Position numbers and translations under genes: made by a program. Source: Pseudobutyrivibrio ruminis CF1b (GTDB taxonomy: Bacteria; Bacillota; Clostridia; Lachnospirales; Lachnospiraceae). From it: a DNA stretch of 64,000 nucleotides. Location of the stretch: assembly GCF_000424005.1 (NCBI RefSeq), contig NZ_AUJB01000017.1:62001-126000 (forward strand), in the 5' to 3' direction. This document shows positions 7,017 to 63,570 of the stretch, one piece after another; the first letter of the stretch is position 1, and every line of letters starts with the position of its first letter. The notes beneath the pieces were generated by a model, which saw only the letters and a program-made list of their open reading frames with translations, ran no database searches and was not told where the DNA came from.

Positions 7017-7272
7017 AAAAAAAGTCTCCTCCTTTTTCGTTTTTTCTGACTTCTGAAAAATCGAACAAGTGGCGACTGTACACTTACCCGTGTGTATCAT
7101 GGTTTAAAACTCAAAGTTCGAACCAAGTTCTCACACGTCGTCTCCGCGAATGCGGACGGTTTTCTGTTGTACAGTGACTTGTCGTCAGTTTCCTAACTTG
7201 ACATTCGCTCCACGGAAAACCAACTCAAAACTGAGTTGCAACCTCACGCTTCATAGCTATCATGTCACAGCA
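7017..7272 (-). promoter_or_regulatory. 5' leader of the S10 operon
   Basis: About 250 nt between the promoter and rpsJ. On the minus strand it contains a clear hairpin CAACTCA-GTTT-TGAGTTG (plus-strand about 7216-7233), a CCGC-ATTC-GCGG hairpin, and other paired segments. Long structured leaders in S10 operons are known sites of ribosomal-protein feedback in other bacteria. Here the role and ligand are inferred only. No protein of its own is evident, although short frames cross it. Confidence 0.5.
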
Positions 7273-22407: not shown

Positions 22408-22477
22408 AAACTAACCCCCTTCAGTATTTTGTTAATTTTATTTTATATGATTATTCAAATAATTAAAAGCCCAAAAA

Positions 22478-22573
22478 AGCCTTCAGTTACGCTCTCAAGC
22501 CTTAATATTTCTCCGGTCAGCTGGAAAAAGCTTCCCTTGAGAAACATTAAGAGCTTGATAGCTACTAAAGGCT
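22478..22573 (-). repeat. Dispersed structured hairpin element, copy A (also terminator)
   Basis: A 96-nt imperfect long hairpin. The outer arms AGCCTTCAGT / ACTAAAGGCT (one mismatch) enclose a core shared with copies at 27758 and 60985. Key core blocks on the plus strand: CTCAAGCC, TTAATATTTCT, CAGCTGGAAAAAGCTT, GAGAAACATTAA, GAGCTTGATAGCT. On the minus strand the arm runs into TTTTTT, so it can terminate the permease gene ending 5 bp away. Confidence 0.75.
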
Positions 22574-22582
22574 ATCTATATT

Positions 22583-23932
22583 TTATAAGTATCTCAAATA
22601 AATATTAAGCATCGATACGACAAGTACAATGATTGTGCCTGGTACGAGCTCTTTGCAGTAGGTTGCCCAGCTGATAGGATAACCTTCCTTACCTGCTGTA
22701 GAGATACCAACTACGTTAGCTGATGCTCCGATTGGAGTCATGCTGCCGCCGATATCTGTACCAACTGCAAGTGTCCAAGCCATTGTAGAAAGATCAACGC
22801 CTGTAGCCTGTGCCAATGCATTGATAACAGGAATCATTGTAGCTGAGAATGGAATATTATCAATGAATGCTGATGCAACTGCACTTACCCAAAGAATAAT
22901 CGCAATCATAACATGAGCATTACCACCTGAAATCTTTGCAATAACATTTGCGATAGTAACAAGTACTCCTGTCTCCTCCAGACCACCAACTACAACGAAA
23001 AGCCCGATGAAGAAAAGAAGTGTCTCATAATCTACTCTTGTGATAAGCTCTTTGAATCTCTTTCTTCCGGCGCATAATGTGATAATTGCCACAAACACAC
23101 CAATGAATGCTACGGTAAGACCTGTCATAGCATGTGTAATAAGAAGTCCAACTGCGATGGCGAAAATTACCACGCTCCAGAAGAACATCTTCTTATCATC
23201 AATTTTAACATCTACATCGATTGTACTAGGGTCTACCTTGTCTCCTGGAGCCTGTAAACGATTACGCATTGTAAAGTAAAAATAGATAATGATAATTACC
23301 AGTGAAACACCAGCAAGTGCTCCAGTATTCATTACGAAATCTGCAAATGAATAACCAAGCGATGTACCAATGATAATATTTGGTGGATCACCGCACATTG
23401 TGGCACTACCGCCAAGGTTTGCACAGAAAATCTCCGCCATGATAACAGGCACTGGATTAAACTTTAGTGTACGTGCCAAACGGATTGTAACTGCTGAAAG
23501 GAACAGTATTACTGTGATTGAATCAATGAACATGGCAAGTACTGATGAAAGTACCATGAAAGCCACAAAAATCTTTCTAGGCTCGAAATGTGCCAGCTTT
23601 GCAATCTTGAGACAAAGCCAGTCAAAAAATCCTGCCGCTGCCATTCCTTCTACCATTACCATCATACCCCAAAGGAAAATGATAGTAGCCCAGTTAATAC
23701 CTGAGGTCTGCTCTGCTGCCTCTCCTGCTGAATACCAAAAACTAGTTTTAAAAATGTTCTTAAATGCTAACGTATTTACGAATGCCTGAGCATCTCTCAA
23801 ACCAATACCAAATACAAAAATACTGGTAAGAGCAGCACAGCACAGTGTGACATAATGCTTTGGAAATCTATCCCATACAATCAGCACGAACATAGCCACG
23901 AAAATGACTATAGCTAATATTTCTGCTAACAT
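22583..23932 (-). CDS. SLC13/ArsB/NhaD-type membrane permease
   Basis: A 449-residue protein with about 11-12 helices in the ion-transporter superfamily that includes ArsB, NhaD and dicarboxylate SLC13 carriers. Two pseudo-repeated re-entrant motifs are visible: GGSATMCGDPPNIIIGTSLG (about residue 180) and GGSMTPIGASANVVG (about 410). The frame is open 26 codons further upstream, but the ATG at 23932 follows AGGGGG and starts a hydrophobic segment. Substrate could be an anion (arsenite, citrate) or Na+/H+; the sequence does not decide. Confidence 0.82.
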   Translation of the reverse strand: MLAEILAIVIFVAMFVLIVWDRFPKHYVTLCCAALTSIFVFGIGLRDAQAFVNTLAFKNIFKTSFWYSAGEAAEQTSGINWATIIFLWGMMVMVEGMAAAGFFDWLCLKIAKLAHFEPRKIFVAFMVLSSVLAMFIDSITVILFLSAVTIRLARTLKFNPVPVIMAEIFCANLGGSATMCGDPPNIIIGTSLGYSFADFVMNTGALAGVSLVIIIIYFYFTMRNRLQAPGDKVDPSTIDVDVKIDDKKMFFWSVVIFAIAVGLLITHAMTGLTVAFIGVFVAIITLCAGRKRFKELITRVDYETLLFFIGLFVVVGGLEETGVLVTIANVIAKISGGNAHVMIAIILWVSAVASAFIDNIPFSATMIPVINALAQATGVDLSTMAWTLAVGTDIGGSMTPIGASANVVGISTAGKEGYPISWATYCKELVPGTIIVLVVSMLNIYLRYL

Positions 23933-24009
23933 AAAAACCCCCTTCGTATACTTTTTATTTCCAACATATTGTATACGAAGAGAGTTGCTTTTTGAATAAA
24001 CATTTTGCA

Positions 24010-26757
24010 CTAAATGTTTGCATTTTCTATTAATTTTTTCATCGATGCAGTATTCTTATATTCATTTAATAAGTGAATGACTGCCTGCTGCAAATCGCCG
24101 AGAGCAAGATATGGACCACGATTGAATCCTTTGTAAGTGATTTTGGTTGTTCCATCAACTTCTTCCTTGATTTTGCACACGCCAGCTTTTTGCAATTCTA
24201 TAGCTTTATCACTAATTTTTTTGCCTGGTTCAACGATTGTAGAAACAAGGGAATCTCCCTTCTTATCCAATTTGAAGGAACCCCATTTTTCATACTTTAT
24301 CATTGGCATTCCATAAAGATATGCTCGTTCAACAATTGATACATATCCATCTGGCTCAAATGTAGGCGAAACATTCATCATAGACTCCAGAAGTTTATCA
24401 GGATCATAACCTGGCATTATCAAATCACAGCCTGCATGAATATCCTCACCCTTGTCAGATATTGATCCCCAGTCAGACATTATAAATCCGTTAAATCCCC
24501 AGTCATTTCTGGCAATATCTGTAATAAGTCCCTTCTGGGATGATGTGTACTTTCCATTTATTCTATTTCCAGATGTCAAAAAGCCCGCTGGCTTAATAAT
24601 GCTCACACACGCAGAGAATGGTCTCAGATAAATCTCAGCAAATGCCCTTCTTGTAAGATTAATATCAGCATCCAATGCAAAGGTCTCCTGGTTAAATGTA
24701 ACGAGATTCTTGATAATTACATTTCTACCCTCATATCTCTTTACGCCCATGATGAAGCCAGCGCCTAAAACACCTGACAATGCAGGGTCTTCAGAGTAAA
24801 ACTCAAAAGATCTGCACCACATTGGGTTTCGGTCTACATTCAAAAATGGTGCTAGACCGTAATCAATATCATAAGCTTCCATCTCACGTCCATAGGCGCG
24901 TCCCATTCTAACCATTGCGCTCATATCCCAGGTCTGTGCCATGTTAAGTGGTGATGGGAAACAGGTACATGGAATTCCTATAATTCGTAAACCCGAAGGA
25001 CCATCTGCAAACCTCACCCTTGGAATTCCAAGAGTAGTCTCGAACTGATTGGTTGTTCTGGCAGCTATATCAAGTTTCTTATCTTTAATATTAAACTTAT
25101 AATTGAATCTGCTATCGTTATCCAGCTTTGAATCTTCCACTGCCCCCACTACGATTCTGGCAAGAATTTCAGGTGATAAAGATGCAATAAATTCCTCCAT
25201 GGTAACTTTGCCCTTTATCACGTCTATAAAAGTAGCGTTACCACAAGGCTTTACAGTTTCAATATTTTCATAAGCTCTGAAAGGAATCTCATAGGCATTA
25301 TTATTTACATAAGATGCATAGTTACTTCCCTCAGAAATATATGTTGTAAATTCTTCCTGCGGATTAACATCTCTGTTCAATGAGTTGTAATCATCCCCTG
25401 ACAGGGATGCCACCATGATGTATCCTGCCTCCTCTTCCTTTCTAGGAGGTGGAGTAAGGAAATTGCCAAAATCTCTGTTCTCCACAAACTGCGTAACCTT
25501 TTTGAGGATAGTAGTCTTATCCAATACCATCTTGGCGCATATCTTTGTATCTCTGGAATGACTTCCCAATCTAAAGATATAATCACCCTGTTCCATAAGG
25601 AATTCAGATTTCTCTTCATCAAAAGATGTGATGGCCATCATAGGAATCTTTACGGTAATCTCTTCTGACTCTCCAGGCTTTATTTTTCCTGTTTTGCCAA
25701 AGCCGCAAAGTACCTGATATGGCTTATCCAGCTTGCCTTCTGGCAATGTACAATACACCTGCACAACCTGACGACCAGAGCAGCTACCTGTATTTGTGAC
25801 CTTCACTCTCATCATGATGGAAATCCAGCTAGCCTCGAAATATTCCAGATTCATATCGAAGGTGGTATAGCTCAGTCCATATCCAAATGGATAAAGCGGC
25901 GTGATGTCAAATGTATCAAAATAACGGTATCCAACATAGATACCTTCCTTATAATCGATAGTCTTATTCTTAACAGCTTTGGAAGTGGCAGCGTGGGTAT
26001 AGCATGTAGAATAATCCTTGAATTTCTTAGCCCATGTACTTGTAAGACGTCCACTTGGATTCACAGCTCCTGTAAGAACATCCGCAAGAGAATTTCCTGC
26101 TTCCATACCTGGAACACCCATCAAAATAATGCCCTTAATATTTTTCAGTCGGGCAACTGATGCAATCTCCAGGGCGTTTGAATTCAAAACAAGGATTACA
26201 TTTTTAAAAGAATTGTTTATGCGATTAATATTATCAAGCTCTTCCTGTGATAACTGATAAGTCTTATTTGTCTCAAAAAAACTTGGGTCATCAACAAATG
26301 GTCTTCTGGCAACATAGATACATGTGTCTGTTCCAAGAATAGCCTCAGCCATATCAGCTTCTGAAATAGGTACTTCAGGGGAAAGCATTTTCATTCCGCC
26401 GAACATAACATTTACCCTGTTCTTTAAATCTGAAAATTCCTTCTCCGCCTGCTTAACAGCCTTTTCCATTTTGTTAAGCCAGCTTTCAGTACTAAAAGTA
26501 AATCCGTTATTTTCAAGACCTTCTCGTACATTTACATTTTTATCAGTATGCACTCTATTGTAAAAAATGCCGCAAAAAAGAGTGTCAACAGCACCTGCTC
26601 CGAACAATGCAACCTTTCCTTTTTGAATAGGAAGAATTCCATTATTTTTCAGCAACACCATACTGTCGGCACCAAGCTGGCGGACTAAGTCCCTGTGTTC
26701 AGGAAAAGCCATTTTTCCACTCTTAGTAATTATTCCCCTCAATTGTCTCAGGTTCAT
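24010..26757 (-). CDS. Glycoside hydrolase family 3, domain-swapped beta-glucosidase type
   Basis: A 915-residue GH3 with reversed domain order. The alpha/beta domain comes first (LGADSMVLLKNNGILPI about residue 29; GVPGMEAGNSLADVLTGAVNPSGRL about 205), then a fibronectin-III-like domain (YPFGYGLSYTTF), and the TIM barrel last (TLGIPRVRFADGPSGLR; nucleophile Asp in GFIMSDWGS, about residue 760). This permuted layout is known from Butyrivibrio and Ruminococcus beta-glucosidases. No signal peptide, so likely cytosolic. Start chosen at 26757, nine bases after AAGGAG; the frame runs 20 codons longer. Confidence 0.92.
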   Translation of the reverse strand: MNLRQLRGIITKSGKMAFPEHRDLVRQLGADSMVLLKNNGILPIQKGKVALFGAGAVDTLFCGIFYNRVHTDKNVNVREGLENNGFTFSTESWLNKMEKAVKQAEKEFSDLKNRVNVMFGGMKMLSPEVPISEADMAEAILGTDTCIYVARRPFVDDPSFFETNKTYQLSQEELDNINRINNSFKNVILVLNSNALEIASVARLKNIKGIILMGVPGMEAGNSLADVLTGAVNPSGRLTSTWAKKFKDYSTCYTHAATSKAVKNKTIDYKEGIYVGYRYFDTFDITPLYPFGYGLSYTTFDMNLEYFEASWISIMMRVKVTNTGSCSGRQVVQVYCTLPEGKLDKPYQVLCGFGKTGKIKPGESEEITVKIPMMAITSFDEEKSEFLMEQGDYIFRLGSHSRDTKICAKMVLDKTTILKKVTQFVENRDFGNFLTPPPRKEEEAGYIMVASLSGDDYNSLNRDVNPQEEFTTYISEGSNYASYVNNNAYEIPFRAYENIETVKPCGNATFIDVIKGKVTMEEFIASLSPEILARIVVGAVEDSKLDNDSRFNYKFNIKDKKLDIAARTTNQFETTLGIPRVRFADGPSGLRIIGIPCTCFPSPLNMAQTWDMSAMVRMGRAYGREMEAYDIDYGLAPFLNVDRNPMWCRSFEFYSEDPALSGVLGAGFIMGVKRYEGRNVIIKNLVTFNQETFALDADINLTRRAFAEIYLRPFSACVSIIKPAGFLTSGNRINGKYTSSQKGLITDIARNDWGFNGFIMSDWGSISDKGEDIHAGCDLIMPGYDPDKLLESMMNVSPTFEPDGYVSIVERAYLYGMPMIKYEKWGSFKLDKKGDSLVSTIVEPGKKISDKAIELQKAGVCKIKEEVDGTTKITYKGFNRGPYLALGDLQQAVIHLLNEYKNTASMKKLIENANI

Positions 26758-26907: not shown

Positions 26908-27759
26908 ATGTTTAAAGATATGTTCGAAAGAGATTCCTCTCTTTCCTTTGAAGTTTTTCCACCTAAAAAAGATGATGAATTCGAAAACTGCTACAAGGTT
27001 TTGGATTCACTTGCTGAGATCAATCCTGATTTCATAAGTGTTACCTACGGTGCTGGCGGCAGTCGTTCAAAGAAAACTGTAGATATCGCTTCGTATATAC
27101 AGAATCAGTTAAAGATAGATGCCATGGCACACATGACCTGTGTAGGCTCATCTGAGGAAGATATCCTTGCTGTCACAAGAGACCTTGAGGCTGTAGGCGT
27201 CAATCACGTACTGGCTCTTCGTGGAGATAAGCCAAGAGATATGTCAGATGAACAGTTCGAACAGAGAATCTTTCCACATGCTACTGACCTAATTCAGTTC
27301 ATTAATAAAAATACTAACCTTATTGTATCAGCATCCTGCTATCCAGAAAAGCACCCTGAAGCAATTTCTATGGATTCTGACATTGCGTTTATGAAAATGA
27401 AGCAGGATATGGGTGCCGAGATGTTTATCTCACAGCTCTTCTTTGACAATGCAGACTTTTACAGATTTATCGAGCGTGCCCGCAGAGCTGAGATTACAGT
27501 ACCTATCGTTGCAGGTATTATGCCTATCACATCTGCTAAGCAGATTGGCTCTACAGTCACTCTGGCAGGCTCTTCTGTTCCAAAGAAACTTGCTGATATT
27601 TGCGCCCGCTACGGTGAGTCACCTGAGGATATGCGTAAGGCCGGTATCGCATATGCGATAGATCAGATTAATGACCTGAAGCGCTGCGGAATGGGGCACA
27701 TCCATATCTACTGCATGAACAAACCTAAGATGACAAAAGAAATTTGTGATGCTATCTAA
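26908..27759 (+). CDS. metF: 5,10-methylenetetrahydrofolate reductase
   Basis: A 283-residue FAD-dependent enzyme that makes 5-methyl-THF for methionine synthesis. It shows the family pattern: SFEVFPPKKDDE at the start, FISVTYGAGGSRSK (about residue 42), HVLALRGDKPRD (about 105), GAEMFISQLFFD (about 172). Strong AAGGAGG site. It is divergent from the GH3 gene and followed by hairpin copy B and cysE. The sulfur amino-acid theme links metF and cysE, but no SAM riboswitch or T-box is visible upstream. Confidence 0.95.
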   Translation: MFKDMFERDSSLSFEVFPPKKDDEFENCYKVLDSLAEINPDFISVTYGAGGSRSKKTVDIASYIQNQLKIDAMAHMTCVGSSEEDILAVTRDLEAVGVNHVLALRGDKPRDMSDEQFEQRIFPHATDLIQFINKNTNLIVSASCYPEKHPEAISMDSDIAFMKMKQDMGAEMFISQLFFDNADFYRFIERARRAEITVPIVAGIMPITSAKQIGSTVTLAGSSVPKKLADICARYGESPEDMRKAGIAYAIDQINDLKRCGMGHIHIYCMNKPKMTKEICDAI

Positions 27760-27849
27760 GCATGTTACACTCTCAATCCATAATATTACTTCGCTCAGCT
27801 GAAGAAAGCTTCGCTTAAGTAACATTATGAGATTGATAGCTACATGCTT
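27758..27849 (+). repeat. Dispersed structured hairpin element, copy B
   Basis: A 92-nt hairpin whose perfect outer arms AAGCATGT / ACATGCTT begin inside the metF stop codon. Core blocks: CTCAATCC, ATAATATTACT, CAGCTGAAGAAAGCTT, AGTAACATTATGAGATTGATAGCT. Compared with copies A and C, CAAGC/GCTTG is CAATC/GATTG here, and TTTCT/AGAAA is TTACT/AGTAA, so both sides of the stem changed together. It lies between metF and cysE. Confidence 0.75.
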
Positions 27850-33290: not shown

Positions 33291-36200
33291 TTAAGATAGT
33301 ATATCTCTCAATTTTTGCGAAATAATTGACCATATAGAAGTTCTTTTACTATTCTTACTTTTCTTTTTAGTCTTGTTATCTTTTGCTTCTGTCTTCTTTG
33401 TCTGCTTCTTTTTATTTTGCTTTTTCGTAGACTTAGACTTCTTTTTGTCTTTTTTCTTTTTGGAATTCTTCTTTGAGTTATTCTTGGTCTGTTTGTTTTT
33501 ATTAACCTGTTTCTTAGTTGAATTCTTTTTATTATCTATCTTTTCAGTTTCAACATTCTTTGAAGAGTCATTTTCTATCTGTGTTGAGTTTTCCTCCTGA
33601 GTATCAGTCTTCTCATCAGCCTTAGTATCTTCTTGTTTTTTATCCTCTGGTTTCTCTTCCACAGGTTTCTCTTCCACAGGTTTCTCTTCCACAGGTTTCT
33701 CTTCTACAGGTTCCTTTTTCTCTCTGTACTGAGGATAAAGATAAACCTCTGTATCAACTATAAATTGCTTTTGATAATTACTGAAATGACATCTAAACAT
33801 CTGATCTTCTGTTATTTCTGTGACAGGCTGCTTACCTTCTGGATCTAACGACCAATAAGCAAATTCCATATTGGAATCTTCTGGAATATAGCTTTCTGGA
33901 CTTACCATATTTATCATGGCTTCATCCAGTGCAGGAATCTTATATGGCATATGTTCTATATCAACCTCATATTCCATATACATCCTTTCATCTGTATAGC
34001 TCTTCAAATCTTCATTTGGAATATAGTACGCTACCGAGCCATACTCATATCCCCACTCAGGATATAAAACAATATCACCGGTTAATTCTGCCAAATCACA
34101 ATTTGGTACAGGCTTGGTTAAGTCCTCATCTAAATACCACTCGTAAACTGCATAGCCCTTTTTATAATAGTTTCCTTTGAAATAATAAGGGCAATTTTCT
34201 GAGTCTCCTGGATAGTAGTACTTTGGAACATTATAGGTTTGCACATCATCGCCAAATTTAAACTCCACATTATATGGCTCAACTGTTGCATATAAAACAG
34301 TTCTGTAGGAGCCATAGGTTCCGATAATTGCCGCATTTCCCTTCTTTCCATTAATAGTGACAAGACCGTTTTCATCTACATCAGCTACCTCTGGATTTCT
34401 TGATTCCCATTTAATCTCTGATGGTTCTGTTACAACAGAGTTCTCTTCCAGTTGAATTTGGAAGGTATCATCCTTATGACCCTTAAAAGCTTCCTCTTTT
34501 ACGATAATGCCTCTTTTTTGATTTGTAGAACCTTCATCCTCAGTGTTATTTGTATAAAGGTAGATTCTAGGGTCCCTATCGTATTCTTCCCCATTGATAG
34601 TACAGCCGTGATCTATTGGATTCTCAATTTCATAGGAATCACTCATATAGTTATAATCAGGCTCCACTGGTACATAAATCCAGTAATCTTCCTTATCTGT
34701 AATAGATAATGTAACTGTAACCTTTGTATCCTTCTTGATTTCTATAGGATTGTCAAGGTGAAGGGTATATGCACCACTATACTTTGCATCTGTATGACCT
34801 GTAGCTGTTTTGCTTCCCGCCTTGACTTCTACCTCTAGTTCTGAGTTGGGATTAGTAACAAATGCAGCAACAGCCTCTATTGTCTCACCAGCTTTAACAT
34901 TGTAATCTGTGGATATTTCTGCATGAGCTGACTTTACAGGAACATTATTCAGGTTAAGAGAAGAAGCGTAGGTATAAGTGTTATCGTATGGATGGATACT
35001 TGTTGAGAAGGCTGTAACTGTCTCATCCCAATTTATTCCCTTGTCGTAATAGGAAACCCAAAAATATCCAAACAAACCATAATCATCAAGACCCCAGCTG
35101 TTTCTGATTAACCATGCTCCATCACCAGGTGGAGTGTTTGTGAAATTCTCTGCTGGAAAATTATCATCCCATCCAACGATTGTTACAGCATGGTTTGGAA
35201 TGGCATCATCGCTACCATTATACATACAGTTTTCCATAGAATTGTATGCCATATCATCTGCATCAATAGTTGTGTAGACCGAGCCATGCTTTAAAATCGC
35301 ATCTTTAACATTGTCTCTCTGATAGATTCTAATATTGTTAACGCTCTCGATTCTTACACAGTTGAAATCCATAGCATATTTTGGCTCTAGCTCCTGTCCT
35401 GCCATGCTATAAGGAACAACTGACTCTGGAACAGCACCTACGCCATTTAGCATAGTTGCGTAAACGTATTGAACAAATCCTCCGTCCTGAAGGTAATCAG
35501 TATCTGGGTAAATAGTATATTTATCATTATCATGGCAATCCTTTGGGTCATCGTAATAATGAGCACAATAATATGCCATCTGGTATTCAGATAAATCAAA
35601 GCTATTATCAACACAGGTGTTTCTGTTTATAACATCTGTCTCAATAGAACACATAGCTGCATGAGCCCAGCAGGTACCATAATTTCCCTGGTTTCTAACT
35701 GAAGGAAGTGCTCCTGCTTCGTAGCCATTGTATGCTGAAGGTAGCTCGTAGCCGGGTCCCTCATAATTAGGGTCATCAATATATGGTCTGAAATTAGCAT
35801 TTGGATCACACTCTGGATCATAAGGACAATCTGGGTCCTCATACTCTGGGCAATCAGGACAGTCCGGGCAATCTGGGTCTTCATACTCTGGACAGTCTGG
35901 GCAGTCCGGACAATCTGGGTCTTCGTACTCTGGACAGTCTGGGCAGTCCGGACAATCTGGGTCTTCGTACTCTGGACAGTCTGGGTCCTCATACTCTGAT
36001 TCATCCGAGCCATCCACCCAGTCAAACAGCTTGGCAAACTTAGCCTCAGCAAAATCACTTATCTTTGTAAATAATGAAGTTAAGATGTTCTTTTCAACCT
36101 TTTCAGTTGGCTCTATAGGCTTTTCTGGATTTACAATTCCATCTGCTGGTGCTTCTTCGTCCTGTACTTTCACTGTAATTTCAGGAACCGTCACATCCTC

Positions 36201-36791
36201 TGCCAACTCATATTCTTCATCAATAACTGGACTGAAGGTGTAGGTGCCAAGCCACTCATTATAATCTGTTACAGGCTCCCACTTAGTGACCTTTACATCT
36301 ATATCCTCATCATCCTCTGTATGAGCTACGATGCTTTCTGGGAACTTTTTCTTAAGGCTGACGAAGGCTAGCTTATACTCTGTTTCTATAGGCTCAAGTT
36401 CGTCAAAGCCTGTAATAAGTTCTGAGGTTTCTTCCTCTTCTTCTAGCTCTTTTTCCTTTAGCTCCTCTTCATCTAATTCCTCTTGATCTTCTTCCTCTGA
36501 ATCTTCCTTGGATTCATCTAATTCGTTCTTTTCATTTTCAGATGAATTATCTTCTACTTCCTCTGTAGATTCTTCCTGGGAAATATCCTTTGAATTATCG
36601 TCTGATTTTTCTTTAGAATTTTCTTCTGAACTGTCATTAGAATTGTCTTGTAGAGCTTCTTGCGTAACTTCTGTTGTTTCTTCCTGGGGTATATCCGCAG
36701 TTTCTGTGGCGATGGAAATAATACTATCGCTACAAAGCAATGAAACAAGAAGCAAGCAGGATACTGCTCGCATTTTAATCTTTGTTTTCAT
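33291..36791 (-). CDS. Large secreted papain-like cysteine protease with Cys-rich repeats
   Basis: A 1166-residue exported protein. Order: signal peptide (about 1-28), very acidic Ser/Glu/Asp region (to about 130), Asp/Pro/Cys tandem repeats (about 265-320), C1 peptidase domain (about 340-600) with catalytic Cys in GNYGTCWAHAAM, His in NHAVTIVGWDD and Asn in IRNSWG, a lectin-like domain, an Ig-like BIG2 domain (about 760-840), InlB-like repeats, four PVEEK repeats, and a Lys-rich tail. No LPxTG motif; the basic tail may bind anionic wall polymers. Probably a surface protease or adhesin. Oppositely charged ends are unusual. Confidence 0.85.
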   Translation of the reverse strand: MKTKIKMRAVSCLLLVSLLCSDSIISIATETADIPQEETTEVTQEALQDNSNDSSEENSKEKSDDNSKDISQEESTEEVEDNSSENEKNELDESKEDSEEEDQEELDEEELKEKELEEEEETSELITGFDELEPIETEYKLAFVSLKKKFPESIVAHTEDDEDIDVKVTKWEPVTDYNEWLGTYTFSPVIDEEYELAEDVTVPEITVKVQDEEAPADGIVNPEKPIEPTEKVEKNILTSLFTKISDFAEAKFAKLFDWVDGSDESEYEDPDCPEYEDPDCPDCPDCPEYEDPDCPDCPDCPEYEDPDCPDCPDCPEYEDPDCPYDPECDPNANFRPYIDDPNYEGPGYELPSAYNGYEAGALPSVRNQGNYGTCWAHAAMCSIETDVINRNTCVDNSFDLSEYQMAYYCAHYYDDPKDCHDNDKYTIYPDTDYLQDGGFVQYVYATMLNGVGAVPESVVPYSMAGQELEPKYAMDFNCVRIESVNNIRIYQRDNVKDAILKHGSVYTTIDADDMAYNSMENCMYNGSDDAIPNHAVTIVGWDDNFPAENFTNTPPGDGAWLIRNSWGLDDYGLFGYFWVSYYDKGINWDETVTAFSTSIHPYDNTYTYASSLNLNNVPVKSAHAEISTDYNVKAGETIEAVAAFVTNPNSELEVEVKAGSKTATGHTDAKYSGAYTLHLDNPIEIKKDTKVTVTLSITDKEDYWIYVPVEPDYNYMSDSYEIENPIDHGCTINGEEYDRDPRIYLYTNNTEDEGSTNQKRGIIVKEEAFKGHKDDTFQIQLEENSVVTEPSEIKWESRNPEVADVDENGLVTINGKKGNAAIIGTYGSYRTVLYATVEPYNVEFKFGDDVQTYNVPKYYYPGDSENCPYYFKGNYYKKGYAVYEWYLDEDLTKPVPNCDLAELTGDIVLYPEWGYEYGSVAYYIPNEDLKSYTDERMYMEYEVDIEHMPYKIPALDEAMINMVSPESYIPEDSNMEFAYWSLDPEGKQPVTEITEDQMFRCHFSNYQKQFIVDTEVYLYPQYREKKEPVEEKPVEEKPVEEKPVEEKPEDKKQEDTKADEKTDTQEENSTQIENDSSKNVETEKIDNKKNSTKKQVNKNKQTKNNSKKNSKKKKDKKKSKSTKKQNKKKQTKKTEAKDNKTKKKSKNSKRTSIWSIISQKLRDILS
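35839..35988 (-). repeat. 42-bp coding tandem repeat
   Basis: Three full 42-bp units (35839-35880, 35881-35922, 35923-35964) and a partial fourth. Each encodes a 14-residue unit of the type EYEDPDCPDCPDCP. Units 2 and 3 differ by a single base, which indicates recent expansion or homogenisation. All lie in frame within the protease gene. Confidence 0.9.
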
Positions 36792-49292: not shown

Positions 49293-49308
49293 AAATACGT
49301 TCATTTCA

Positions 49309-49482
49309 ATGATAGCTCCCCATCTATTACTAGATGACAGTCATACGGCTCTTAACCGTATGCCCAAGACAAACACACACAGGAGTGTGCTCTCTTTCGG
49401 CGAAATCCCCTTTTATCTCATATCACTTGGGCCTGTCCCATCAATGAGATTACTAATGTTTCTCGCAACCTCTATCTCTTAT
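49309..49482 (-). ncRNA. Lysine riboswitch (L box)
   Basis: About 174 nt on the minus strand with the conserved lysine-aptamer blocks in order: AGATAGAGGTTGCGA, AGTAAT, GGGGATTTCGCCGAA, CTTGGGCATACGG, GACTGTCATCT, and the closing GGGGAGCTATC that pairs with GATAG to form P1. It is followed by a terminator and dapA. Family assignment is by motif recognition, compared with the Bacillus lysC leader. Confidence 0.93.
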
Positions 49483-58300: not shown

Positions 58301-58336
58301 ATATTATCATCCCGATTATCACACAAGTGTCACAGC
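58301..58336 (-). promoter_or_regulatory. Direct-repeat activator-type promoter 1
   Basis: Plus-strand TATCACAC (58317-58324), AAG, TGTCACAG (58328-58335): direct repeats 11 bp apart. On the minus strand a -10-like TAATAT (58301-58306) follows after exactly 10 bp, with no good -35. This geometry is typical of OmpR/PhoB-family activator sites. The same layout occurs at 60943-60978. Confidence 0.55.
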
Positions 58337-58340
58337 AAAA

Positions 58341-58380
58341 ATTAAATAAAAACGAGGCACCTATGATTAAAGCGCCTCGC
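58341..58380 (-). terminator. Terminator of the PadR-HAAS-DUF4097 operon
   Basis: On the minus strand GCGAGGC-GCTTTAATCATAGGT-GCCTCG followed by TTTTTATTT, about 20 bp after the DUF4097 gene. Confidence 0.85.
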
Positions 58381-60942: not shown

Positions 60943-60978
60943 AATATATCATAACTTTTATCACACAAGTATCACACT
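60943..60978 (-). promoter_or_regulatory. Direct-repeat activator-type promoter 2
   Basis: Plus-strand TATCACAC (60959-60966), AAG, TATCACAC (60970-60977), with -10-like TATATT on the minus strand (60943-60948) exactly 10 bp away. Same arrangement and near-identical sequence as promoter 58301-58336. Confidence 0.55.
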
Positions 60979-60984
60979 AAAAAT

Positions 60985-61081
60985 GGCCAATCTGTTACAG
61001 TCACAAGCCATAATATTTCTACATTCAGCTGAAGAAAGCTTCATTTAAGAAATATTAGAGCTTGTTACCTACAGATTGGCC
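60985..61081 (-). repeat. Dispersed structured hairpin element, copy C
   Basis: A 97-nt hairpin 14 bp after the mutS2 stop. Perfect 11-bp outer arms GGCCAATCTGT / ACAGATTGGCC enclose the shared core (CACAAGCC, ATAATATTTCT, CAGCTGAAGAAAGCTT, AGAAATATTAGAGCTTGTTACCT). On the minus strand it runs into ATTTTTAG. Same family as 22478 and 27758, with a wholly different arm sequence. Confidence 0.75.
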
Positions 61082-61095
61082 TCAATATTCTACAT

Positions 61096-63570
61096 TTATT
61101 TAAAAGTTACAATCGTAACGCCGGCGTCGCCTTCTCCGAATTCTCCAAGGTGGAATTCAGCTACATTTTTACATTTGCGAAGGTACTGCTGCACACCAGC
61201 TCGGAGGGCTCCGGTACCCTTTCCATGAACAACTCGAACTGAGGTAAGGTGGCTGATGTATGCATCATCAAGATACTTCTCCAGCTTTGCGATACCTTCA
61301 TCAACTGTGCATCCAAGAAGATTAATTTCTGGTGAAATAGATGCTGCCTTATTGAATCCGCCGTAAGTCATATTCTTGACTCTTGTGCCCTTCTTAGGAA
61401 CAAACTTATCCTCTTCCTCTATAAGCACAAGGTCCTTGATATTTACAGTGGACTTCATAATACCCATCTGTACTGTCACATCGCCCTTAGCGTTAGGAGC
61501 GGTACAAACATTTCCTGTGAGATTCATAGAAAGTACCTTTACCTTGTCTCCCACACGGAGATTTGTAGGTACGTTGTGGTTCTCCTGAACCTCCTGCTTT
61601 TCCTTGGCCTTGCTCTTAGCTTTGTTGATACCCTGACCAAGGGCTGCACGCTTAGCCTCCATGGCAGAAATATTTCCGCCACCCTTGCCAAATTTATTAA
61701 AGTCGCGAATGGTCTCATCCGCAATGTCCTTGGCCTCCTGAAGGATAGCTGCTGCATCTTCGTGTGCCTGACGGATAAGTTCCTCACGCTGAGTCTTAAT
61801 CTTCTCTTCTTTTGCTGTAGCACTGGCAAGCTTTGCCTCTGCCTCTTTTAAAGCTGCGGCTGCCTCTGCTGCATCCTCCTCTACCTGATGACGCTTCTGC
61901 TCCAGATCAACCATCAAATCTTCAAAAGACTTGTCATCCTCTGACAATCGTCCCTGGGCATCCTCAATTAAGTCTGCTGGAATTCCAAGCTTAGAAGAAA
62001 TAGCAAATGCGTTAGACTTTCCAGGCACACCAATAATTAAGTGATATGTAGGGCTGAGGGTCTCAAGGGAGAATTCACATGAAGCATTCTCAACACCCTC
62101 TGTTGAAAGAGCATATACCTTAAGCTCACTGTAGTGAGTGGTAGCCATAGTCCTAACATCTAATACATGAAGTCTGTCTAAAATAGACTGGGCAAGGGCT
62201 GCACCTTCCTTAGGATCTGTACCAGCACAAAGCTCATCAATAAGGATAAGGAACTGTGGAACTTTCTGCTCCTCCTTTGTTCCGTGAATTACCTTTGAAT
62301 GTACAAAGTCCTTCTTATTTTCTGCATTAAGCTTCTCAGTCTCCTTTGAGTAGCTTCCACCATTGATTGCTTCTAAAATGTGGACAATGTTAACCATATG
62401 AGATGAGAATGTGGAAAGTGACTGCTCGATAGACTGCTCGTCACCAATATCTGCATAAACATCATCAAATACTGCCACCTGGCTTCTATCCTTTGCAGGA
62501 ATATGAAGACCAGCCTGTGCCATGAGTGTAAGAAGACCACATGTTTTAAGTGAGACAGTCTTACCACCAGTGTTAGGACCTGTAACAAGAAGAAGATTGT
62601 AATCCTCTCCAAGTTTAATATCTGTAGCAACAACCTTCTTAGGGTCAAGAAGTGGATGTCTTGCTCCGCGAAGGTTAATGATTCCATCCTCATTAAACTC
62701 TGGGCTGCTTGCGTTAAGCTCGATTGCATAACGGCCCTTTGCAAGAATGAAATCAATCTCTGTAAGCAATTCGTAATTACGAATTATTCCTTCAGAAGCA
62801 TCAGCTATCTTATTTGAAAGAATAGCAAGGATACGCTCTATCTCATCCTGCTCACGTACCTGTAGCTCGCGCATCTCATTATTTAAATCGACAGCCTGCA
62901 TAGGCTCAATAAAAAATGTAGAACCTGTTGAAGACTGGTCATGAACCATACCTGGCACTCTTGATTTGTAGTCAGCACGGACAGGTAGACAGAATCTGCC
63001 ACCTCGAACTGTAACTACTGGCTCCTGCAAATAGCCTCTTGTAGTGCTGTTATTAAGCATGGAATTCATTACGCTCTTAATCTTCTCATTAGTGCGCTGC
63101 ATTCCCTTTCTGATATCGTAGAGGGCTGTGCTGGCATCATCTGCGATTGTCTCCTCATCGATGATACATCTTCTGATTTCATTTAGAATCTGCACCTCTG
63201 GAGAAAGGCCATTGAAATAGAAGCTGAGGGCATCCTCTTCCTCCATCTGCTTGCCGTATGCAGCCACGCGCTTTGTAACCTCAAGAACATTTGCCACTGC
63301 AAGAATCTCCTCAATGCTCAGAGAAGAACCAAGCTCTAATCTGGCAAGTGACGGACGCAAATCAGTGGTACCGCTGGCGCTTACATCTGAAAACTTTACA
63401 AGACGATTAAAAGCGCAGGCAGTCTCCTGCTGCATCACCTTGATTTCCTCGATATCGTTAATAGGAAGAAGCTGCTTACAACGAAGCTTTCCTGACTCAC
63501 ATGTAGCCAGCTCCGATAACCTGTTTATTATCTTGTCATATTCTAGTGTTTTTAATACTTTTAAGTTCAT
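61096..63570 (-). CDS. mutS2: MutS2 endonuclease/ATPase
   Basis: An 824-residue MutS2, which acts on recombination intermediates and, in Bacillus, on collided ribosomes. Core and lever domains (1-310), ATPase with Walker A VTGPNTGGKTVSLKT (about residue 333) and Walker B LILIDELCAGTDP (about 444), long coiled coil (about 520-640), and C-terminal Smr nuclease domain with VRVVHGKGTGALRAGVQ (about 782). Slightly longer than the usual 780-790 residues, by an insertion near 410-430 (SYSKETEKLNAENKKDF). The gene stands alone. Confidence 0.95.
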   Translation of the reverse strand: MNLKVLKTLEYDKIINRLSELATCESGKLRCKQLLPINDIEEIKVMQQETACAFNRLVKFSDVSASGTTDLRPSLARLELGSSLSIEEILAVANVLEVTKRVAAYGKQMEEEDALSFYFNGLSPEVQILNEIRRCIIDEETIADDASTALYDIRKGMQRTNEKIKSVMNSMLNNSTTRGYLQEPVVTVRGGRFCLPVRADYKSRVPGMVHDQSSTGSTFFIEPMQAVDLNNEMRELQVREQDEIERILAILSNKIADASEGIIRNYELLTEIDFILAKGRYAIELNASSPEFNEDGIINLRGARHPLLDPKKVVATDIKLGEDYNLLLVTGPNTGGKTVSLKTCGLLTLMAQAGLHIPAKDRSQVAVFDDVYADIGDEQSIEQSLSTFSSHMVNIVHILEAINGGSYSKETEKLNAENKKDFVHSKVIHGTKEEQKVPQFLILIDELCAGTDPKEGAALAQSILDRLHVLDVRTMATTHYSELKVYALSTEGVENASCEFSLETLSPTYHLIIGVPGKSNAFAISSKLGIPADLIEDAQGRLSEDDKSFEDLMVDLEQKRHQVEEDAAEAAAALKEAEAKLASATAKEEKIKTQREELIRQAHEDAAAILQEAKDIADETIRDFNKFGKGGGNISAMEAKRAALGQGINKAKSKAKEKQEVQENHNVPTNLRVGDKVKVLSMNLTGNVCTAPNAKGDVTVQMGIMKSTVNIKDLVLIEEEDKFVPKKGTRVKNMTYGGFNKAASISPEINLLGCTVDEGIAKLEKYLDDAYISHLTSVRVVHGKGTGALRAGVQQYLRKCKNVAEFHLGEFGEGDAGVTIVTFK

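Follow-up and report, generated by a model that had tools for sequence, protein, structure and literature searches.

We analyzed a stretch of 64,000 nucleotides from Pseudobutyrivibrio ruminis CF1b (NZ_AUJB01000017.1, positions 62,001 to 126,000; hereafter, the window). Three hairpins, termed A, B and C, lie next to protein-coding genes in the window, as follows.

22473–22478: A-run at hairpin A, the last A being common to the run and the arm; it corresponds to a U-tract on the minus strand
22478–22573, plus strand: hairpin A (arms 22478–22486 and 22565–22573, core 22487–22564)
22583–24010, minus strand: citrate-transporter gene, the end of which is 9 nt from the arm of hairpin A
26908–27759, plus strand: MTHFR gene, the TAA stop codon of which (27757–27759) is overlapped by the left arm of hairpin B
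27758–27849, plus strand: hairpin B (arms 27758–27764 and 27843–27849, core 27765–27842)
From 27898: hexapeptide-transferase gene, with hairpin B upstream of it
60979–60983: A-run at hairpin C, corresponding to a U-tract on the minus strand
60985–61081, plus strand: hairpin C (arms 60985–60994 and 61072–61081, core 60995–61071)
61096–63570, minus strand: MutS2-like gene, the end of which is 14 nt from the arm of hairpin C

The original prediction was that A, B and C are long hairpins that align the same way. This was confirmed by their positions, by the alignment, in which they share one orientation, and by folding. The folding z-scores against shuffled DNA were -7.15 for A, -6.22 for B and -8.88 for C, and none of 200 shuffles folded equally well for any of them. 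The paired changes described for the inner stem (CAAGC/GCTTG to CAATC/GATTG, and TTTCT/AGAAA to TTACT/AGTAA) were also found in the alignment. The outer arms had been described as unrelated in sequence and self-complementary. Self-pairing was observed in all three hairpins, with one C/A mismatch in A, whereas the arms do share sequence at their ends: all finish in G before TTAC and resume with C after (G/C)CTA. The tail of hairpin B is weak.

In a DNA search, 32 matches were obtained in the P. ruminis genome (16 contigs, 3.27 Mb in total). Of these, 23 were clear copies, from which a covariance model was made. With this model, 47 matches were obtained in the same genome. Since one place may be read on both strands, they correspond to 42 full-length places (E <= 2e-13) and one short weak place. 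Thus, the many further copies expected in the genome are present. Model matches were detected in 28 of 29 Pseudobutyrivibrio genomes, that of P. ruminis CF1b included, and in all 21 genomes of good quality. At most 139 candidates were scored per genome in this survey, and the largest count in one genome was up to 137 matches, a place read on both strands being counted twice. The genomes G014, G016 and G017, which are drafts of 81–86% completeness, gave 0, 1 and 6 matches, respectively. The expected spread over other Lachnospiraceae was not borne out. In a family-wide sample of 200 genomes, matches were found only in the two Pseudobutyrivibrio genomes, and no copy was found in the 198 genomes of other genera (20 candidates scored per genome, with stricter filters). 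Furthermore, an exact 22-nt pattern was found in 24 stretches of the GTDB contigs, and all 24 are titled Pseudobutyrivibrio. The hairpin family appears to be confined to this genus of rumen bacteria.

In Rfam, no match at the gathering score was obtained for the window copies, and near copy B none appeared even with E values of up to 1; a known Rfam family is rejected on this basis. Copies borne by plasmids or viruses were unsupported, since neither a 92-base query against the PLSDB plasmids nor an exact 19-nt pattern in viral contigs gave a match. Among the open-licence PMC papers that were listed in literature searches, none dealt with such repeats in Pseudobutyrivibrio or Butyrivibrio.

The core is about 73–81 nt long, and the whole unit with its paired outer arms is about 90–105 nt. 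In an alignment of 71 distinct rows, which was fitted to the model and thereby favours pairing, and in which related rows are counted separately, standard pairs occupy 97.7% of the pair cells and two-sided changes occur in 23 of the 29 pairs. In these rows, 403 cells are changed on both sides, against 112 in shuffles (sd 9.6), and pairing falls to 27–45% when the partner is shifted by one to three columns. The covariation in these aligned copies is massive. The selection on structure originally proposed is upheld in so far as the covariation is overwhelming, but classical RNA selection need not be its sole cause, given the core flips and replacements described below.

In 94 rows, which take in two opposite-strand readings and one truncated copy, the 2726 pair cells include 2624 Watson-Crick pairs, 9 G-U and 26 A-C, of which the A-C cells are G-U when the other strand is read. 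G-U wobble is rarer here than in tRNAs (52 of 761 pairs in 35 tRNA genes from two related genomes). Since wobbles are rare in the pair cells, the paired changes mostly replace one Watson-Crick pair by a different one. This calls for folding of both strands, the copies being read both ways, for events at the DNA level that alter both sides at once, or for the two together. In co-directional gene contexts, 13 wobbles were concordant with the mRNA strand and 5 were discordant; a wobble that follows the mRNA strand is not convincing.

Copies were collected with a finder, a regular expression that requires roughly paired arms. It recovered 93 of 96 copies outside the window and all three within it, and yielded 117 unique copies. 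The arms are 6 bp or shorter in 51 copies and at least 7 bp in 66, but this length may take in pairing between an A-run and a T-run, which makes it depend in part on the tails. Among the 51 short-arm copies, 36 have a 5-bp arm with GC at its outer end, and 33 have CC in the left flank and TCA in the right. Their commonest full form is TATAATCC-GCNNG-TTAC...CTA-CNNGC-TCATCTAA, in which the variable letters (N) pair with each other. Because these 33 copies have common sequence outside the arms, the unit exceeds the core. The outer arms are part of the unit, yet they vary from site to site.

Among 111 copies for which both neighbours are known, 109 have a gene ending towards them. Two copies are in divergent gaps, against 16% of the background (p 1.7e-6), and 33 are in convergent gaps, against 7.8% (p 1e-11), where the background is gaps of at least 100 nt in sequence of two related genomes, and where the copies are not independent, some being orthologues and most loci having been picked by likeness to the copies of P. 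ruminis. For the 38 copies from G001 and G003, where the finder was run over the sequence at large and not over chosen loci, the effect was weaker, with 1 copy in a divergent gap (p 0.024) and 7 in convergent gaps (p 0.026). The median distance from a copy to the neighbouring stop codon is about 12–24 nt. Two loci have two copies near each other, in the same orientation in L141 (7292–7575) and in opposite orientation in L139 (5651–6125).

Since arm length and tails are interdependent, the tails were also counted by gene context alone. A T tail on the right (at least 6 T in 10 nt) was detected in 25 of 33 convergent copies, 12 of 55 (- -) copies and 10 of 21 (+ +) copies. The corresponding numbers for an A tail on the left (at least 6 A in 10 nt) were 22 of 33, 13 of 55 and 4 of 21. 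The convergent and (- -) copies differ in both the T tail (p 1.3e-6) and the A tail (p 1e-4). When divided by arm length, the convergent long-arm copies have T on the right in 24 of 27 and A on the left in 20 of 27, and the convergent short-arm copies in 1 of 6 and 2 of 6, respectively. In the (- -) context, the short-arm copies have T on the right in 4 of 30 and A on the left in 1 of 30. Of the 25 long-arm copies there, 12 carry A on the left, where it is expected, and 8 carry T on the right, the opposite side. A Fisher p of 2e-8 contrasts groups that differ in arm length as well as in gene context, and no conclusion is drawn from it. Thus, tails are far from universal among the copies. The arrangement of a terminator, that is, a stem with a U-tract behind a gene, is seen in most convergent copies, in a minority of (- -) copies and in about half of (+ +) copies. 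Judged by their letters, the copies in convergent gaps, which are mostly tailed on both sides, look like bidirectional terminators.

Presence and absence were compared at orthologous sites. Of 91 unique copies, 37 could be assigned to a site in 2.0 Mb of G001 from their two flanks, L063 being left out as a G001 copy matching itself. Ten records at 8 sites were occupied, 9 in the same orientation and 1 inverted. The finder detected no element in the other 27 records (about 22 sites), but at least 3 of these sites hold remnants. The G001 sites with gaps up to 200 nt were also read by eye, L069, L054, L134 and L139 being left out. At site C, the G001 sequence is continuous and has neither core nor arms. 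At L031, L041, L055 and L126, a plain hairpin unlike the element stands in its place in G001. In total, eight sites empty by eye have no arms or a different plain hairpin (site C, L031, L032, L041, L055, L058, L081 and L278). The cleanest case is L278 in a comparison of G002 with G003, where the flanks are 92–93% identical and a short-arm unit is missing before a start codon. Thus, at clean empty sites the arms are absent along with the core. Each empty site may reflect a gain elsewhere or a loss at the site. In the 13 records of the comparison with G003, L253 was missed by the finder and occupied by eye, L109 matched itself, and L110/L261 and L010/L045 each represent a single copy. As a separate observation at L109 (1327–1460), the right arm and the adjoining nucleotides (TACATGCTTATTTATTAGA) are tandemly repeated in G003, not in G002.

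Decayed forms were also found. At three sites (L129, L088 and L042), G001 has arm hairpins from which the core is nearly gone. The small-loop hairpins at L129 and L088 retain apparent core ends (TTACGCTTTATAGCTA and TAGCTAA, respectively), and therefore look like internal deletions. At L042, identical arms GCCTG/CAGGC enclose a 10-nt loop in G001, and this could be a hairpin from before an insertion or, possibly, a decayed form. Site B is a remnant in G027 (L091), and the counterpart of L272 in G003 is a flipped remnant. L086 is a partly repeated copy, and at L136 (5380–5590) a copy is nested in an older copy. L136 alone hints at a target duplication, of 6 nt (TTCAAG), and none is clear at the empty site L278. 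A search for an autonomous partner covered 2.0 Mb of sequence from G001 and 0.4 Mb from G003; among the element halves located outside full copies, with 130 nt read at each, none flanked a transposase. The halves were mostly chance matches, together with two decayed copies in G003 and one 3' orphan half in G001.

Occupied orthologous sites show how the element changes in place. Both flanks could be aligned for 37 orthologous pairs, some of which share a site; the element lies the same way in 33 of these pairs and is inverted in 4, at three distinct sites. In L074/L097, the arms are identical, the core is flipped and one base is changed. For the 19 pairs that are at least 75% identical, the structure of one member served as the reference: 516 of its Watson-Crick pairs are the same in the other member, 62 are changed to another Watson-Crick pair (30 of them transversion pairs) and 24 are changed to a wobble or mismatch, where one or both sides may differ. 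In L253 and its G003 counterpart, with flanks 94–97% identical, one arm pair is changed from C-G to A-T, and the core also has unpaired changes. A one-step state was found in L274, where the arm has a C/A mismatch and G003 has T-A. In L077/L141, the arm letters change at orthologous sites and the pairing is kept.

The core is nearly unchanged between L268 and G003 (flanks 92%) and widely different between L003 and L062 (flanks 91–92%, element 67%). Since cores at orthologous sites are either near-identical or widely unlike, the sequences hint at replacement of the core in place. Arms are common and the core is different between site A and its G001 counterpart (271964) and between G001 111386 and G003 173563; arms kept with a different core were also found at L057, L125 and G001 1396818. 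Because cores flip and get replaced within kept arms, DNA-level events such as conversion and template switching probably contribute to the covariation. Furthermore, 62% of 99 cores have their nearest core within their own genome. The share in 2000 shuffles was 27%, with a maximum of 46%. A loop type common to 7 of 29 G001 cores is absent from the 31 G000 cores compared. The mean core identity is 0.689 within G001 and 0.702 between G001 and G000, and 0.750 within G002 and 0.753 between G002 and G003, where the G000 and G002 loci were picked because they resemble a single model. That cores are homogenised within a genome was only partly borne out. The cores are partly genome-specific, and conversion and lineage-specific spread explain this equally well.

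Several known systems were compared. BOX, RUP, ERIC, Correia/NEMIS and EFAR elements have conserved termini. Integron attC sites were also considered as a possible likeness. The nearest known kinds are SPRITE, BOX and RUP of pneumococcus. According to excerpts of PMC3049150, SPRITE resembles the present hairpins as a short interspersed, terminator-like repeat near gene 3' ends that is enriched between convergent genes, and the excerpts give neither a known mobilising IS nor an established target duplication for it. Unlike our hairpins, SPRITE is described there as having an 18-bp stem, a U-rich tract behind it and AAAA/TTTT ends. The Pseudobutyrivibrio hairpins are much longer, have a conserved core in site-specific arms, flip in place and belong to an unrelated genus. 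Thus, the original statement that no named family has this layout holds for Rfam, but SPRITE does have a name and shares part of the layout. BOX and RUP of pneumococcus, ERIC of enterobacteria, Correia/NEMIS of Neisseria and EFAR of Enterococcus are likewise short non-coding palindromes with many copies and robust RNA folds in the parts of PMC3049150, PMC10969869 and PMC3733652 drawn on here. BOX, RUP and SPRITE also insert into one another. Unlike in BOX, RUP, ERIC, Correia and EFAR, the outermost stem of our hairpins varies between copies and yet pairs with itself; the sequence comparison with these families was by Rfam. Excerpts of a 2024 review of prokaryotic MITEs (PMC10969869) present a terminator role as conceivable. 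The hairpins are short (about 90–105 nt), non-coding, self-complementary and present in 42 copies, as in a MITE, with outermost repeats that are not conserved in sequence, and they differ in presence at orthologous sites (the G001 placements; L278, empty in G003). The template-switch model, in the portion of PMC8794818 used here, predicts multiple paired changes per event and inversion of a loop within its stem. The flip in L074/L097 has this form, but that portion describes the model for rRNA with loops of about 4–8 nt, whereas the inverted core measures about 75 nt here. In the open-licence PMC papers that were consulted, neither a conserved core within paired outer arms specific to each site nor flipping in place was described.

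Four other explanations were weighed. The hairpins could be a purely selfish or inert MITE-like repeat, positioned behind genes only because insertion is tolerated there. The presence/absence differences, the restriction to one genus, the nested, repeated and decayed copies (L136, L086 and L091) and the loop types that vary between genomes all agree with this, and the authors of PMC3049150, in the excerpts, apply the same logic to the convergent-gene enrichment of the pneumococcal repeats. We nevertheless regard an inert repeat as doubtful, because pairing is so widely intact over the 71 distinct rows with few wobbles, because the tails track the gene context and because the arms of L077/L141 remain paired while their letters change. 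It is somewhat less probable still that the core alone is the element and inserts in the loops of pre-existing intrinsic terminators, the arms being the old terminator stems. Arms with A/T tails do resemble terminators, arms are kept around different cores at the five places listed above, and L042 in G001 has the same arms around its short loop. Against this, arms are also gone, or a different plain hairpin is present, at the eight empty sites, the hairpins at L129 and L088 appear to be internal deletions, and 33 short-arm copies share sequence beyond the arms. As a general rule, core insertion into ready-made terminator loops is rejected, since arms are missing at empty sites.

That the hairpins are bound by a protein or processed by an enzyme (e.g., RNase III or a nucleoid protein) also seems unlikely, slightly more so than core insertion. 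The conserved unpaired bases of the core (TAC opposite T near the base, a bulged A and the CAAGC block) might be recognition marks. The asymmetric internal loops are conserved and several core pairs barely vary despite change elsewhere; moreover, Correia elements are known to be targeted by RNase III, and an RNase E site can be unmasked by ERIC, as stated in excerpts of PMC10969869. A binding site has no candidate protein here and leaves the tails unexplained. The REP/REPIN repeats with RAYT, which would be moved by a Y1 transposase, are alike as high-copy extragenic palindromes, and many of our copies have GTAG at one core end on the reverse strand. The hairpins are larger than REPs, which are 20–40 bp in the excerpts of PMC3733652, and Y1_Tnp (PF01797) is present in 10 of the 29 genus genomes but absent from the P. 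ruminis genome with its 42 copies. This very improbable explanation was rejected on the absence of Y1_Tnp.

On balance, and with moderate confidence, we favour an old dispersed MITE-like hairpin that has been co-opted as terminators and intercistronic hairpins. A MITE-like palindrome would have spread through Pseudobutyrivibrio and would today be mainly an RNA hairpin at gene 3' ends. Copies flanked by A/T runs, as in most convergent gaps, would be intrinsic and often bidirectional terminators. Short-arm copies without tails between co-directional genes, often just before the next gene, would be intercistronic hairpins, and these probably influence mRNA stability or processing. The cores would flip or be replaced in place through ectopic conversion or template switching. 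The enrichment in convergent gaps counts against co-option, because it is also expected of a tolerated parasite, an argument taken from the excerpts of PMC3049150. The match between tails and gene context argues for use despite this option.

A bolder version is that a mobile hairpin supplies the genus with terminators, that single events at the DNA level (template switching or ectopic conversion, with core flips in place) rewrite both sides of its stem and that its arms are made to measure at each site; we hold this to be improbable, about as much as an inert repeat. If it were true, an RNA structure would evolve almost without unpaired or wobble intermediates. The family offers a natural experiment on the possible origin of bacterial terminators and intercistronic hairpins from a dispersed repeat. 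With up to 137 matches per genome in about 28 related genomes, and with sites of paired arm change, flips and replacement, it becomes directly testable whether compensatory changes in hairpins are single mutational events. Annotators, in turn, gain a family that is absent from Rfam 15.

Some other features of the window were observed. A 38-nt direct repeat (82%) is present at 58305–58342 and 60947–60984 and contains TATCACACAAGT.TCACA. Its second copy adjoins hairpin C in the region before a PadR-like regulator gene, and the repeat, which is partly retained in G001, is possibly a common operator or promoter. Tandem 42-nt and 15-nt repeats (35808–35998 and 33620–33718, respectively) are within a large ORF (33291–36791, minus strand) and are probably repetitive protein segments. 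Two Rfam structures were detected on the minus strand, an S10-Clostridia ribosomal protein leader (RF03136) at 7179–7262 with 91.4 bits and a lysine riboswitch (RF00168) at 49305–49482 with 116.6 bits.
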